Positions 11,984 through 17,240 of a stretch of DNA of 64,000 nucleotides are shown here, piece after piece. The DNA comes from a bacterium. GTDB taxonomy: Bacteria > Desulfobacterota > Binatia > HRBIN30 > CADEER01. Made by a program: the position numbers and the translations under genes. Location of the stretch: contig JAHBUY010000004.1 in assembly GCA_019637795.1 (NCBI GenBank), forward strand, positions 310,001 through 374,000. Direction: 5' to 3'. How positions within the stretch are numbered: the first letter of the stretch is position 1; each line of letters starts with the position of its first letter. The notes beneath the pieces were generated by a model that saw nothing but the letters and a program-made list of their open reading frames with translations, was not told the DNA's origin and searched no databases.

Positions 11984-12018
11984 AAAAAGAAAGGGCGGGA
12001 GCTTTCGCCCCCGCCCTT
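11984..12018 (-). terminator. Intrinsic terminator of the secreted-paralogue operon
   Basis: Read on the minus strand, AAGGGCGGG (12018-12010) pairs with CCCGCCCTT (11999-11991) around a 10-nt loop and is followed by TTCTTTTT. It lies 24 nt after the stop codon of the last paralogue, so it is well placed to end the four-gene transcript. Confidence 0.85.
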
Positions 12019-12042
12019 CCGTACGGAGCTGATCGATTTCGG

Positions 12043-13197
12043 TTACGGCAGGACGATGAAGTCGGGGTTGGCGCGATCGCCCTGGAAGTGGACGTTGAAG
12101 TCCGCCAGCCCGCTGCTTTCGTGGACCTCGTGCGCCACCGCCAGCAGGCCGCTGCCGATCGGGTTGATGCGCGTCTGGCCGGTCAGCGTCCCCGACACGC
12201 CAGCGCTGAAGATCGAACGCTCGTTCTGCGTCGTGTCGATGTTCGAGATCAGCGAGAACTGCTTGCACTGCATCGGCCGGCTGGTGGAGAAGCGCTGCTC
12301 GAACTCGTTGTAGACCAGGTACTGGACCACGGCCGCGCCCGGCTTCTGGCGCAGGTAGTCCTCGCTGCACGGCACCAGTTCGAGCACCGTCCCGATCTGC
12401 GAGCCGTCGTTGCTCACCGGGTCCTCGGCGCCATCGAAGAAGTGGTTGAGGATGAGGAAGTTCGGGCAGCCGTTGTACTCCGCATCCGGCCCACCGAGCA
12501 CCAACACGTTGTCGTCGTTGACCGCACCTTCGATCGCCTGGATGCCGATCGCATTGTGCTTGGCCACCGTGAGATCGAGGCCGTCATTCACTTGCAGCGT
12601 CGCCTCGCCCTTGATGACGTTGCGGTCGATGGGCACGCCGTCCTGATCGACGACGATGCAGCGCAGGCTGCCGAGGAACGGCGATTCCGGCACCGGCGGG
12701 ATCCGGCTGCCGGCGTTGCTGCTGCCGCCGATGCCGAAGTTGGTCACCCCGTCGATGGCGAACTTCCCGAATGCCTTGGGCGGGAAGGTGGAGAACCCAG
12801 CCACCCCCGACGAAGCCAGCCAGCCCATCGGCTGGCGCGGCGTCAGTCGGATGCGGAAGTCCGTCTCGTTCCACCCCGGCAGGCAGACGCCGCAGCCGGC
12901 GCCCGGGATGCAGCACTCCTGCGCCGCCTCGCACACCTGTCCGGTGTTGGTGCAGTGCGCGTTCGCGTTCTCGTAGAAGCAGTGCACGTTGACCGGATCG
13001 GTCGACGTGTTGCTCAGTTGCACGATCGTGTCGATCGCCCCGCCGACGAAGCTCGAATCGGCGTAGATGATGCTCGGCCACTCGAGGATCGCCGCCGCGC
13101 GATCGGACGTCACATCCGCTCTCGCGGTTCCCACCCCACCGATCGCAAGAGCCGCGGCGAGTCCCACCGTCCAGCTCGCCCAACGCACCTGTCGCAT
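12043..13197 (-). CDS. Secreted paralogue 4 (B type), function unknown
   Basis: A 384-residue exported protein that I do not recognise as a named family. A Sec signal peptide (WTVGLAAALAIGGVGTARA) is followed by SDRAAAILEWPSIIY, a beta-rich segment (DTIVQLSNTSTDPVNVHCFY), a Cys-rich insert at residues ~80-110, and the motif RIRLTPRQPMGW. Then come SLRCIVVDQDGVPID, CPNFLILNHFFDGAEDP, LVYNEFEQRFSTSR, SIFSAGVSGTLTGQTRI and a C-terminal HFQGxRxxxDFIxLP box. All these blocks recur in the 14554-16107 gene, making the two B-type. The ATG at 13197 is chosen for AAAGGAGA 9 nt upstream. Last gene of the four-gene operon. Cell-surface or extracellular location is inferred from signal peptide and paired Cys. 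Confidence 0.85.
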   Translation of the reverse strand: MRQVRWASWTVGLAAALAIGGVGTARADVTSDRAAAILEWPSIIYADSSFVGGAIDTIVQLSNTSTDPVNVHCFYENANAHCTNTGQVCEAAQECCIPGAGCGVCLPGWNETDFRIRLTPRQPMGWLASSGVAGFSTFPPKAFGKFAIDGVTNFGIGGSSNAGSRIPPVPESPFLGSLRCIVVDQDGVPIDRNVIKGEATLQVNDGLDLTVAKHNAIGIQAIEGAVNDDNVLVLGGPDAEYNGCPNFLILNHFFDGAEDPVSNDGSQIGTVLELVPCSEDYLRQKPGAAVVQYLVYNEFEQRFSTSRPMQCKQFSLISNIDTTQNERSIFSAGVSGTLTGQTRINPIGSGLLAVAHEVHESSGLADFNVHFQGDRANPDFIVLP

Positions 13198-13245
13198 GAT
13201 TGTCGTCTCCTTTCCCCTTTGGCGCACGCTTGTACCGGCCTCGGA

Positions 13246-14484
13246 TCAGCGAACCTGGTCCGGCGGGATCGTGATCAGGTCGTGCTGCGGCCGCTCGCCT
13301 TCGACGTGCAGGTTCACGTCCGCCGTCGCGATGTAGCCGTCGTCGTCGTCGCTCGAATACGCCTCGGTCTGCACCATCATGAAGCCCGAGTTGGTCTGCG
13401 CCGACGGCCGCAGCCGCGTCTGCGCGAACGACGTGCCCAGCGCCGCGTAGCTGAAGGTGACCGGGTTGACCTCGTCCAAGCTCAGCTCGTCCCAGCAGGT
13501 CACCTGCGTCGACGACGAGAAGGCCGTCTCGAACTCGTTCCAGGTGTTGATCGCGATCGTCACCGTCTGCGGCGCCTGGGTCTCGAAGTTCTGCGTGCAC
13601 GGCACGATCGTCCACGCCGTCTCGACCGACCCGTTGGCCACCGTCGGGTTCGGCGCCCCCTGCGCGAAGTGGTTGGCGATCCAGAACTGCGGGCAGGCGT
13701 CGTACTCGGCGCCGTTCGGGCACTCCTCGCTCGGCTCCCCGCCGAGACAGAGGACGTTGTCGCCGTCGTTGTTCTCGTTACCGATGACGCCGATCGCGTT
13801 GTACTTCGCGACGTCCTGCACGTCCCCGTTGCAGTCGGAGTCGCTGTAGCAGGGCGTATCGAGGGTCTCGAGCACGCAGCGGCCGTCATTCGGGTCGAGC
13901 GGGCTGCCGGGATTGCACACGTTGAAGGTCGTGGTCGTCGCCTCGCCCTTCAGATGGTTGCCGGACAGCGGCGCCCCCGACGGATCGACCTCGATGCACT
14001 TCAACTCGCCGGTGAAGTACTCCACCACCGGTGGCACCCGGCCGGGATCGATGCCGGCGTCGTTGCAGCCGTAGAAGCCGCCGCTCGGCAGGCCGCCACT
14101 CTGCCCGACCGGCAGCGCCGTGTTGCTGCACGGCGGATCGGCCGCATTGACCAGACGGCCCTGCGACACCACCCAGTGCGTCGGCTGCTGCTTGGTCAGC
14201 CAGATGTCGAAATCCGTCTCGATCCACAGCGGCGGATTGAACACGCTGCGCGGCTCGTTCGGACGGGTGAGCGCGCCATTCACATAGAAGCAATGCGCGT
14301 GCACCATCGAATTCGAGGTGTTGGTGATCTGGATGACCGTGTCACGCGTGCCATCGGCGATCACCTTCGGAAAGACCAGGATCGACGCGCTCTTCTCGGT
14401 GGTCACCTGGGCTTGCGCACCCCCGACCACCAGTCCCACCAGAGCCGCGGCCATGAGCCCGACTCGTCCTCGCTGCCTACGCAT
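13246..14484 (-). CDS. Secreted paralogue 3 (A type), function unknown
   Basis: A 412-residue exported protein of unrecognised family. The signal peptide RVGLMAAALVGLVVGGAQAQ is followed by SASILVFPKVI, DTVIQITNTSNSMVHAHCFY, DIWLTKQQPTHWV, DAGIDPGRVPPV, ELKCIEVDPSGAPLSGNHLK, DNVLCLGG, and AEYDACPQFWIANHFAQGA. It ends with HVEGERPQHDLITIP. These blocks match the 16110-17240 gene much more closely than its direct neighbours, so both are called A type. A Cys-rich insert sits near CNPGSPLDPNDGRC. Start: ATG at 14484 with AAGGAGG 6 nt upstream; the open frame to 14505 has no such site. It begins 69 nt after the previous gene's stop and 48 nt before the next start. Confidence 0.85.
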   Translation of the reverse strand: MRRQRGRVGLMAAALVGLVVGGAQAQVTTEKSASILVFPKVIADGTRDTVIQITNTSNSMVHAHCFYVNGALTRPNEPRSVFNPPLWIETDFDIWLTKQQPTHWVVSQGRLVNAADPPCSNTALPVGQSGGLPSGGFYGCNDAGIDPGRVPPVVEYFTGELKCIEVDPSGAPLSGNHLKGEATTTTFNVCNPGSPLDPNDGRCVLETLDTPCYSDSDCNGDVQDVAKYNAIGVIGNENNDGDNVLCLGGEPSEECPNGAEYDACPQFWIANHFAQGAPNPTVANGSVETAWTIVPCTQNFETQAPQTVTIAINTWNEFETAFSSSTQVTCWDELSLDEVNPVTFSYAALGTSFAQTRLRPSAQTNSGFMMVQTEAYSSDDDDGYIATADVNLHVEGERPQHDLITIPPDQVR

Positions 14485-14553
14485 TAGCCTCCTCCTTTCG
14501 GTCACGGCCCATTCGCCGCGCCACCATGCCGTACCGCGTTGCCCCGTGGGTGG

Positions 14554-16107
14554 CTACGGCAAATAGATGAAATCACTCTGGGGGCGACGCCCCTGGAAGT
14601 GCAGATTCTTGCCCGTCCCGCTCAGGGTCCGCTGCGCATCGACCAGGTCGCAGGTCGGGAACTGATACTTTGGCCCCTGGCAGCGGAACTCCTCGGCGAT
14701 GCCGAGGAGCGTGTTGCCGCCGCGCCCGACGTTGTCGTCGTTGACCACGCCGCGGATGCGCGACTGGCCGGTCAAGGTGCCGGCGACACCCGCGCTGAAG
14801 ATCGAACGCGTGTTGTCGCTGGTCTCCATGTTGGAGAGCTGGATCTCCTTGAAGCAGTCGACCGTGCGGCTGGTCGAGAAGCGCTGCTCGAACTCGTTGA
14901 AGACCAGGAACTGCGCCACCGTCCGCGACAGGTCCAAGCGGCGCTCCTCGAAATCCTCCGTGCAGGGGATCAGCGTCAGATCAGTCGCCAAACGGACCTG
15001 ATAGTCGGCCGCCACGCAGTCGGCGTCCGACGAGCAGCGGTTCCCGGTGAGGGTGCAGGTGTTGTTGCCGAGGTTGCAGGTGTTCTGGCAGTCCGCGTCC
15101 GTCGCGCAGGCGGTGTCGGTAACGCTGCAGGTGGCCCCCAGGCAGGTGTTCTTGGTGCACTCGGCGTCGGTGTCGCACGGAGTGCGGCTCAGGCTGCAGA
15201 CCGAATCCACGCACACATTCTGCAACACCGGATCGACCGCGCCGTCGAAGAAGTGGTCGAGGATGAGGATGTTGGGGCAGCCCTCGTATTCGGCAGCGCT
15301 GGCATCGCCGCCGAGAACCAAGGTGCGATTGCGGTTGCCGGTGCCCGGTATGGCGGGAATGCCCACCGCGTTGTAGCCGAGGAGTTGCATGCGCGACTGC
15401 GGCCCCATCGAACGGCCGATCAACGCCGTGCCGATGAGGTCATTGCGCGCCACCGGCTGCCCGTTCTCGTCGACCGCGATGCACTTGAGCTCGCCGATGA
15501 AGGGATCGTCCGGCGACAGCGGGATCGCGCCTTCGTTGGTCTGCCCACCCGGCCCGACGCGGCCGAGCGGACTGCCGTCAAGCGGCAGGCACGGCTGGAT
15601 GACGCAGCGATTGCCGGCGCCGCACTGGGTGTCGCGTTGACACTTCGTCGCCGGGCTGTTCGAGCAGAAGCCGTCGAGGAACGGGCAGTTGGTGCTCTGT
15701 CCCTTGGACACCGCCCAGCCGGTCGGCTGTTCGCGCGTCAGACGGAAGGTGAAGTCGTTCGGCTGCCAGTTGTCGATGCAGCTTCCGATGAAGATCTGGC
15801 CGCCGATGTTCGCCTGGCAGGAGAGCTGGTTCGGGAAGCAACTGCCGCCCGGAATGGAGCAGATCGGGGTCGCGTTGACGTAGAAGCAGTAGACGTTGAT
15901 CGGCGTGTCGGAGACGTTGCTCATGCGGATCAGCGTGTCGAGACCGTTGGCCGTGTCGACGAGCAGCTTGGGGAAAACCAGGATGGCCGCCGGATGGTCG
16001 GAGCCGATATCCGCCCGGGCCCGCCCCCCGGCCGCCAAGCCGAGGCCGAGCGCGAGCGCCATCGTCAGCACCAATCGCACGCCCATCTTCGCGCCCCGCC
16101 CCATCAT
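14554..16107 (-). CDS. Secreted paralogue 2 (B type) with Cys-rich repeats, function unknown
   Basis: A 517-residue exported protein, the longest of the four paralogues. The signal peptide (LVLTMALALGLGLAAGGRARA) precedes HPAAILVFPKLL and DTLIRMSNVSDTPINVYCFY. It shares FRLTREQPTGW, ELKCIAVDENGQPV, AEYEGCPNILILDHFFDGA, FNEFEQRFSTSR, SIFSAGVAGTLTGQSRI and HFQGRRPQSDFIYLP with paralogue 4. Two inserts are extra: a Cys-rich stretch near residues 140-165 and, near residues 300-370, consecutive units of the form C-x-L-x(3)-PC-x-TDAEC. The ATG at 16107 has GGAGGG 9 nt upstream; a GTG at 16113 overlapping the upstream stop is an alternative. Disulfide-rich extracellular function is inferred. Confidence 0.85.
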   Translation of the reverse strand: MMGRGAKMGVRLVLTMALALGLGLAAGGRARADIGSDHPAAILVFPKLLVDTANGLDTLIRMSNVSDTPINVYCFYVNATPICSIPGGSCFPNQLSCQANIGGQIFIGSCIDNWQPNDFTFRLTREQPTGWAVSKGQSTNCPFLDGFCSNSPATKCQRDTQCGAGNRCVIQPCLPLDGSPLGRVGPGGQTNEGAIPLSPDDPFIGELKCIAVDENGQPVARNDLIGTALIGRSMGPQSRMQLLGYNAVGIPAIPGTGNRNRTLVLGGDASAAEYEGCPNILILDHFFDGAVDPVLQNVCVDSVCSLSRTPCDTDAECTKNTCLGATCSVTDTACATDADCQNTCNLGNNTCTLTGNRCSSDADCVAADYQVRLATDLTLIPCTEDFEERRLDLSRTVAQFLVFNEFEQRFSTSRTVDCFKEIQLSNMETSDNTRSIFSAGVAGTLTGQSRIRGVVNDDNVGRGGNTLLGIAEEFRCQGPKYQFPTCDLVDAQRTLSGTGKNLHFQGRRPQSDFIYLP

Positions 16108-16109
16108 CC

Positions 16110-17240
16110 TCACGGGCCCTCCGGAATGAAGATCAGGTCGGTCTTGTCGCGCGTGCCCTGTTCGTGGAGGTTGAACGCCACCCGCGCCGTGAGCCCGTCG
16201 ATCGGCACGATCGTGTGATACTCTTCACTGATGCCGACGAAGCCCGAGTTGGCAGCGTCCGACGGCCGCATCTGCGTCTCCACGAACCGCGTCTGCGAGA
16301 CCAGCACGCCGAAGATGTTGCTGATGTCGCTCAGCAGAAAGCTGCGCCAGCAATCGACCGTCGTGCTGGCGGAGAAGCGCTGCTCGTACTCGTTGACGCC
16401 GATGAACTGGACGACGATGCGCGTCGCTTCCTGCCGCTCGTAGTCGGCGCGACATGGAACCAACGTCACCTGGGTCTGCACGCTCGACAGATCGGCAAAG
16501 ATCGGGTTGTCAGCCCCGCCGGCGAATTGGCTCAGGATCGCCTTCTGGCCGCACCCCTCGTACTCCGCACCGCTCGGGCAGTCGTCGCTGACGCCGCCGC
16601 CGAGGCAGAGGACGTTGTCGCCGTTGTTACTGAAGGGCTCGCCGAGCAGCCCGACCGCGTTGTACTTGGTCGCCTGGCCGTCGTTGTAGACGATGGTCCC
16701 CTCGCCCTTCAGGTGATTGCCGCTGATCGGCGCGCCGGACTGGTCGACCTCGATGCAGCGCAACTCGCCCTGGAAGGGGAAGCTCGCGACCGGCGGGACG
16801 CGCCCCGGATCGAGACCCGCGCCGTCGCAGTCGTACTTGCCGGTGGTGCGGTCGCACGGCTCGTCGGACGGGTTGGTGAAGCGACCGACACCGGCCGCCC
16901 AGTGCGTCGGCTGCTGCTTGGTCAACCAGATGTTGAAGTCGACCTCCTGCCACTGCGGCTGGCAGACGCCCGAGCAGGTGCCGGCCAGACAGTCGCCACT
17001 GCCCAGGCAGATCGGCGTCGCGTCGACGTAGAAGCAATGCGCGTGCACCATGGAATTCGAGGTGTTGCTGATCTGAATGATGGTGTCGCGGCTGCTGTCG
17101 TAGACGATCTTGGGGAAGATGAGAATCGAGCTCGAGCGCTCGGTGGTCGACTCGGCCGACGCGGGACGAGCGACGGCGGCGACGAGCATCAGGGCGCTCA
17201 CCGCCCACCATGCGATCGATGCCATGCGCGTCATACGCAT
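16110..17240 (-). CDS. Secreted paralogue 1 (A type), function unknown
   Basis: A 376-residue exported protein, first gene of the four-gene operon. The signal peptide (SIAWWAVSALMLVAAVARPASA) precedes SSSILIFPKIVY, DTIIQISNTSNSMVHAHCFY, a small Cys-rich insert (CLGSGDCLAGTCSGVC), and NIWLTKQQPTHWA. It continues with GLDPGRVPPV, ELRCIEVDQSGAPISGNHLK, DNVLCLGG, AEYEGCGQKAILSQFAGGA, GVNEYEQRFSAS and the terminal HEQGTRDKTDLIFIP. Start 17240 or the ATG six bases on (17234), which has AGGGA at good spacing; the frame is open to 17312 but that part lacks a signal-peptide look. No enzymatic motif was found. Confidence 0.85.
   Translation of the reverse strand: MRMTRMASIAWWAVSALMLVAAVARPASAESTTERSSSILIFPKIVYDSSRDTIIQISNTSNSMVHAHCFYVDATPICLGSGDCLAGTCSGVCQPQWQEVDFNIWLTKQQPTHWAAGVGRFTNPSDEPCDRTTGKYDCDGAGLDPGRVPPVASFPFQGELRCIEVDQSGAPISGNHLKGEGTIVYNDGQATKYNAVGLLGEPFSNNGDNVLCLGGGVSDDCPSGAEYEGCGQKAILSQFAGGADNPIFADLSSVQTQVTLVPCRADYERQEATRIVVQFIGVNEYEQRFSASTTVDCWRSFLLSDISNIFGVLVSQTRFVETQMRPSDAANSGFVGISEEYHTIVPIDGLTARVAFNLHEQGTRDKTDLIFIPEGP

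Follow-up and report, generated by a model that had tools for sequence, protein, structure and literature searches.

A family of paired secreted paralogues with a predicted ASRT-like fold across an uncultured order of Binatota

Within the window, as we call the whole 64,000-nt stretch of DNA analysed here, four intact open reading frames follow one another on the minus strand in the order A-B-A-B, with an ilvE-like aminotransferase gene upstream and a tRNA-Leu gene downstream. The features of this array are as follows.

16110..17240, minus strand: gene 1, A-type secreted paralogue of 376 aa, first in the operon (ORF, motifs, A clade)
14554..16113, minus strand: gene 2, B-type secreted paralogue of 519 aa (ORF, B clade)
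15010..15219, minus strand: cysteine-rich repeat insertion found in gene 2 only, at about residues 299-368, as seen in the alignment
13246..14505, minus strand: gene 3, A-type secreted paralogue, probably starting at the ATG at 14484 (ORF, A clade)
12043..13227, minus strand: gene 4, B-type secreted paralogue, probably starting at the ATG at 13197 (ORF, B clade)
11989..12020, minus strand: intrinsic-terminator-like hairpin (14 pairs, 10 of them G-C) and T tract directly 3′ of gene 4, of a kind no rarer in shuffled sequence

Genes 1 and 2 overlap in a GTGA that holds both the stop codon of the former and the GTG start of the latter, the remaining intergenic gaps are short, and clear AAAGGAG-type ribosome sites can be read before ATG 14484 of gene 3 and ATG 13197 of gene 4. 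All four proteins begin with a hydrophobic stretch followed by an AxA-type cleavage site, and none carries a lipobox. Genes 1 and 3 share the motifs NTSNSMVHAHCFYV, LTKQQPTHW, DPGRVPPV and SGNHLKGE, and genes 2 and 4 share LIL[DN]HFFDGA, [FY]NEFEQRFSTSR, SIFSAGV[AS]GTLTGQ and HFQGxRxxxDFIxLP. A sequence-only reading of this DNA had described four secreted paralogues in A-B-A-B order, and its open reading frames, coordinates and signal-peptide-like N-termini, together with every motif it had quoted for the two types, are borne out. In the alignment the paralogues are homologous over their full length, with 37-49% identity to gene 1 and about 80 invariant columns, so that by their sequences A and B are two subfamilies of one family and not two families. 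The insertion in gene 2 is built of CxTDAxC-like units that the neighbouring genes lack, and the same residues give a weak, sub-threshold Pfam match to DUF5885.

Scans of the four window proteins against Pfam and NCBIfam returned nothing above the curated cut-offs. Pfam scans of 57 B and 55 A members gave scattered single-member matches only (best E 0.001), none of which was common to two members within A or within B, and a PDB sequence search with A and B profiles gave nothing credible. The C-terminal extensions that some divergent B members carry likewise yielded no domain.

The host belongs to an order of Binatota that forms an uncultured lineage of soils and hot springs. By a whole-genome search together with a family profile, we found 16 members in its own 6.16-Mb assembly, in arrays that are all even-numbered (4, 2, 2, 4, 2 and 2 members). 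The family is present in 15 of the 15 available genomes of this HRBin30-type order (the HRBin30 order of Binatota is named in PMC8262859), at roughly 10 to 27 match segments and about 16-20 copies per genome. Among 133 genomes of the class, only two further ones hold a distant homologue, one each, and a phylum-wide sample added two more genomes outside the order. These four lone homologues (L120, L121, L124 and L126), from other orders and classes of the same phylum, share with the A/B family full-length homology (profile E 1e-28 to 1e-45), a signal peptide and the core motifs, but differ from it in being single-copy, partnerless and outside the order, with no second member within 14-18 kb. 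They probably represent the state before duplication. Plasmid sequences searched for lone homologues gave no match. Using a heuristic pattern rather than SignalP, we counted an AxA-type site in 107 of 110 members and a lipobox-like pattern in 2 of 110. Secretion is supported by these signal-peptide features of the sequences, and a location beyond the inner membrane, like the surface location put forward in the sequence-only reading, is presumed. That the proteins are bacterial lipoproteins, with a lipobox cysteine after the signal peptide, was considered and rejected for lack of support (2/110).

To describe the arrangement of the two types we used 130 members in 43 arrays from nine genomes. 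The arrays read ABAB (16), AB (16), ABA (4), BB (2) and B (2, one of which sits at a contig edge), together with ABABB, ABABBB and ABAAB; those ending in extra B copies belong to genomes G001 and G003. Adjacent genes number 58 A→B, 23 B→A, 5 BB and 1 AA, and like neighbours this few occurred in none of 20,000 label shuffles, where the minimum was 25; as the labels were obtained by cutting the tree at its best branch, this statistic tests the order along arrays and not the existence of the split. A/B alternation is thus far beyond chance. The main exceptions to pairing lie in genome G006, where L092 is a BB locus and L093 a lone B. In genome G005 a family gene at L082:9181-10435 (minus strand) is divided between two frames that overlap, apparently by a frameshift or as a pseudogene; this broken copy stands between two As where a B would be expected, and its array reads ABAAB.

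The split itself is seen in a tree of 57 sequences, in which the bipartition of A and B has support 100/97, with one change per label. The two checks that the sequence-only reading had set speak for it: members of each type group with their own kind, and A next to B is found again at several unlinked loci in each of the genomes examined. A tree in which neighbours 1 and 2 or 3 and 4 are closest relatives, named beforehand as the one that would speak against this, is rejected by AU tests (p 1e-4 and 6e-6). Orthology instead follows array position, each of the four genes grouping with its positional counterparts in other genomes; these positional groups, some of which gain or lose extra copies and not all of which are strict clades, span the order, which makes the A-B-A-B array older than the whole order. 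Duplication of an A-B pair, the origin first suggested, is therefore supported by the tree and by adjacency, although not as a recent local event. Two hallmarks set B apart: three extra cysteines in an N-domain loop (64 of 67 B vs 11-15 of 63 A) and the Arg of NEFEQRFS (63 of 67 B vs 18 of 63 A). When the tree is rooted with the four lone homologues, B forms a clade (99/98) inside an A-like grade, from which B is probably the derived partner; under the same rooting, monophyly of A is not rejected (p 0.25).

The spacing of the genes identifies the A-B pair as the unit, because the gap from A to B is tighter than that from B to A (medians of 15.5 and 45 bases, taken from the stop codon to the point where the profile match begins; p 1e-4). 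We also observed that the tree of A mirrors that of the neighbouring B, with r 0.76 across 58 pairs and 0.83 when the four conserved loci are taken, compared with at most 0.42 when B partners were reshuffled within genomes 5000 times. Taken from sequence comparison, these mirrored trees show joint inheritance of specific partners and do not by themselves prove physical contact. They would also arise if A and B were co-transcribed but independent secreted paralogues with divided labour, whose adjacency and matching trees reflect block duplication and joint inheritance with no contact between them, since co-phylogeny is expected for any block-duplicated gene pair; the B-only loci L092 and L093 fit such independence too. 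Four loci have nevertheless kept their gene order and spacing for a time that covers the whole taxonomic order, the A→B gap is the tighter one and nearly every unit retains both partners. Selection that maintains pairing or equal dosage explains this more simply, even if co-expression alone could suffice. We regard independent paralogues as a doubtful reading, though one to be taken seriously. Pairing and ancestry of A and B are well supported; a physical A/B complex, its stoichiometry and its ligand are what we infer from the comparisons that follow.

AlphaFold2 models of mature gene 4 (B) and mature gene 1 (A) are confident, with pLDDT values of 94.4 and 93.8. In structure searches with both models, TM1070 of Thermotoga (1nc7) was the clear best match, to the following domains.

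12535..13101, minus strand: N-terminal domain of gene 4 (model residues 10-198), predicted ASRT/TM1070-like beta-sandwich
16152..16562, minus strand: C-terminal domain of gene 1 (model residues 198-334), second predicted ASRT/TM1070-like beta-sandwich

In VIA-align the gene 4 N-domain aligned to 1nc7 with Z 12.4 and rmsd 3.4 and the gene 1 C-domain with Z 12.4 and rmsd 3.8, each over 114 of 116 residues. TM1070 belongs to the superfamily of ASRT, the Anabaena sensory rhodopsin transducer, which is known from bacterial light signalling; the runner-up for the B model was 2ii8, the structure of ASRT itself, at Z 8.0, and the next row for the A model stood at Z 6. Combining the B N-domain and A C-domain matches, the models suggest two ASRT-fold domains per chain, because A and B are homologous across both halves. 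The predicted models have the eight-stranded ASRAH beta-sandwich topology, and a conserved Asn, the residue that is nearly invariant at the end of strand 2 in ASRAH domains, ends model strands 22-30 and 245-254 in A and 31-40 and 265-274 in B. This strand-2-end Asn is present in 125 of 130 N-domains and 111 of 130 C-domains, with Asp in 18 more of the latter. Strand 1 of the N-domain has an aromatic residue (Phe, Tyr or Trp) in 126-127 of 130 members; it is mostly Phe, and the Trp that ASRAH domains conserve at the start of this strand is not generally kept (Trp in 17 of 130).

By sequence the relationship is not visible. PF07100, the ASRT family of the ASRAH superfamily, had no match in the Pfam scans of the family or in 148 genomes of the phylum including its own, and hhalign of the family profiles against nine plasmid-derived ASRT sequences scored below 1%, which is not significant. 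Because real ASRT sequences gave no significant profile match, we speak of a predicted ‘ASRT-like fold’ and not of an ASRT member. Profile-profile comparison of the N-half with the C-half likewise detected no internal duplication, so the shared fold of the two halves rests on the models. With neither of these profile comparisons significant, any analogy to ligand binding by ASRT is weak. The earlier statement that no known domain was recognised thus stands in so far as no characterised family matches by sequence, and needs amending in so far as the models have a known, ASRT/TM1070-like fold.

The genes around the family loci share no common function from one locus to another. At T1, ilvE-like, trmFO-like and topA-like genes lie ahead of the array (the last two identified by reading ORFs), T3 is near a UDP-sugar dehydrogenase gene, and T4 is near ABC exporters and lptD. 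Directly downstream of T2 arrays (L080:6674-9195 and L038:4925-5422, both minus strand) we observed a single-domain response regulator and a conserved protein of about 700 aa with no Pfam match. Directly upstream of another ABAB array, L038:10965-13523 (minus strand) encodes a secreted protein with a dockerin-like repeat and a long Thr/Pro-rich, mucin-like stretch, ending in a C-terminal domain of unknown type; ORFs resembling it stand at the equivalent place in other genomes, a match that low complexity may inflate. The UDP-sugar dehydrogenase, LptD, the ABC exporters and the Thr/Pro-rich secreted protein fit an envelope or extracellular setting, to which we give little weight because the neighbours differ from locus to locus and the genome is rich in dockerin-like matches. 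It is very improbable that A and B act as cohesin-like secreted partners of dockerin-bearing proteins, a notion raised by dockerin-type repeats encoded close to two further A-B loci in the same genome: that genome has 30 dockerin-like matches, not specific to A-B loci, the fold match is to TM1070 and not to cohesin, and the annotated cohesin matches lie elsewhere. The dockerin/cohesin link was rejected as unspecific.

The same proteins might serve as structural surface or matrix components, such as a coat, fibre or biofilm scaffold in which A and B alternate as building blocks, rather than as ligand-binding modules. High copy number, secretion, tandem beta-sandwiches and conserved cysteines are in keeping with this, as are a weak, low-ranked structural similarity to RbmA and major pilins and the Thr/Pro-rich protein upstream at the L038 type of locus. 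The Z values to pilins are background, however, at 4-5, and sortase, donor-strand and S-layer signatures were not recognised, which leaves a structural role improbable.

The account we prefer, and to which we give roughly an even chance, is that A and B are obligate partners, joined in a secreted heteromer that comprises four ASRT-fold domains and perhaps has an envelope or extracellular sugar as ligand. The proposal draws on TM1070, a tetramer in which the dimer interface forms part of the cleft, and on multi-domain ASRAH relatives, whose domains are arranged as dyads or tetrads, both as described by De Souza et al. 2009 (PMC2739507). Small-molecule, probably sugar, binding by ASRAH proteins is itself a prediction of that study, and ASRT has been examined as a DNA-looping protein as well (PMC8660804). 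Most likely, a lone ancestral protein, still single in distant relatives, duplicated into A and B, which became partners. The two would be translated one after the other, exported by Sec, folded with their conserved cysteines presumably in disulphides, and assembled as an A:B heteromer; by analogy, an A:B dimer of two-domain chains would present four ASRT-fold domains, as the TM1070/ASRT homotetramer does. A-B units would then have multiplied to at least four loci before the order diversified, each unit presumably with a small ligand of its own, which may be a saccharide of the envelope or of the extracellular space. More tentatively still, and less likely than not, these may be lineage-defining, combinatorially expanded secreted binding proteins, with at least four ancient A/B pairs per genome, each an ASRT-fold pseudo-tetramer with its own ligand.

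Set beside known systems, the A/B family resembles TM1070/ASRT in predicted fold, which covers almost the whole 116-residue TM1070 chain, in the Asn ending strand 2 and in the strand-1 aromatic, and it would resemble secreted actinobacterial ASRAH dyads in the two domains per chain that the models suggest. It differs from TM1070/ASRT in being secreted, cysteine-rich, bearing large insertions and coming as paired A/B paralogues, in lacking a significant sequence or profile match, in having mostly Phe rather than Trp on strand 1 and in being non-lipoprotein. Heteromers of paralogues that evolved from homomers are a general phenomenon (for example PMC6711710 and PMC7480870). The series proposed here, from a lone ancestor to two diverged paralogues kept together, would match it, with a heteromer that is presumed.

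What is new is a secreted family for which Pfam and NCBIfam have no model and which all available genomes of an uncultured order carry: an order-specific, paired variant on a known fold, that fold being predicted. It extends the ASRT fold, as modelled, to an unexpected setting, and the ancient A/B split with clear orthologous loci makes it a defined, testable system. The natural series of lone homologue, single pair and double pair bears on how a lone protein may become an obligate heteromer. On the more tentative reading of an expanded set of binding proteins, a fold so far examined mostly in a homotetramer of the cytosol would here take an extracellular form, as a heteromer of paralogues. 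The family also gives an initial clue to what these bacteria might present or bind on the outside.
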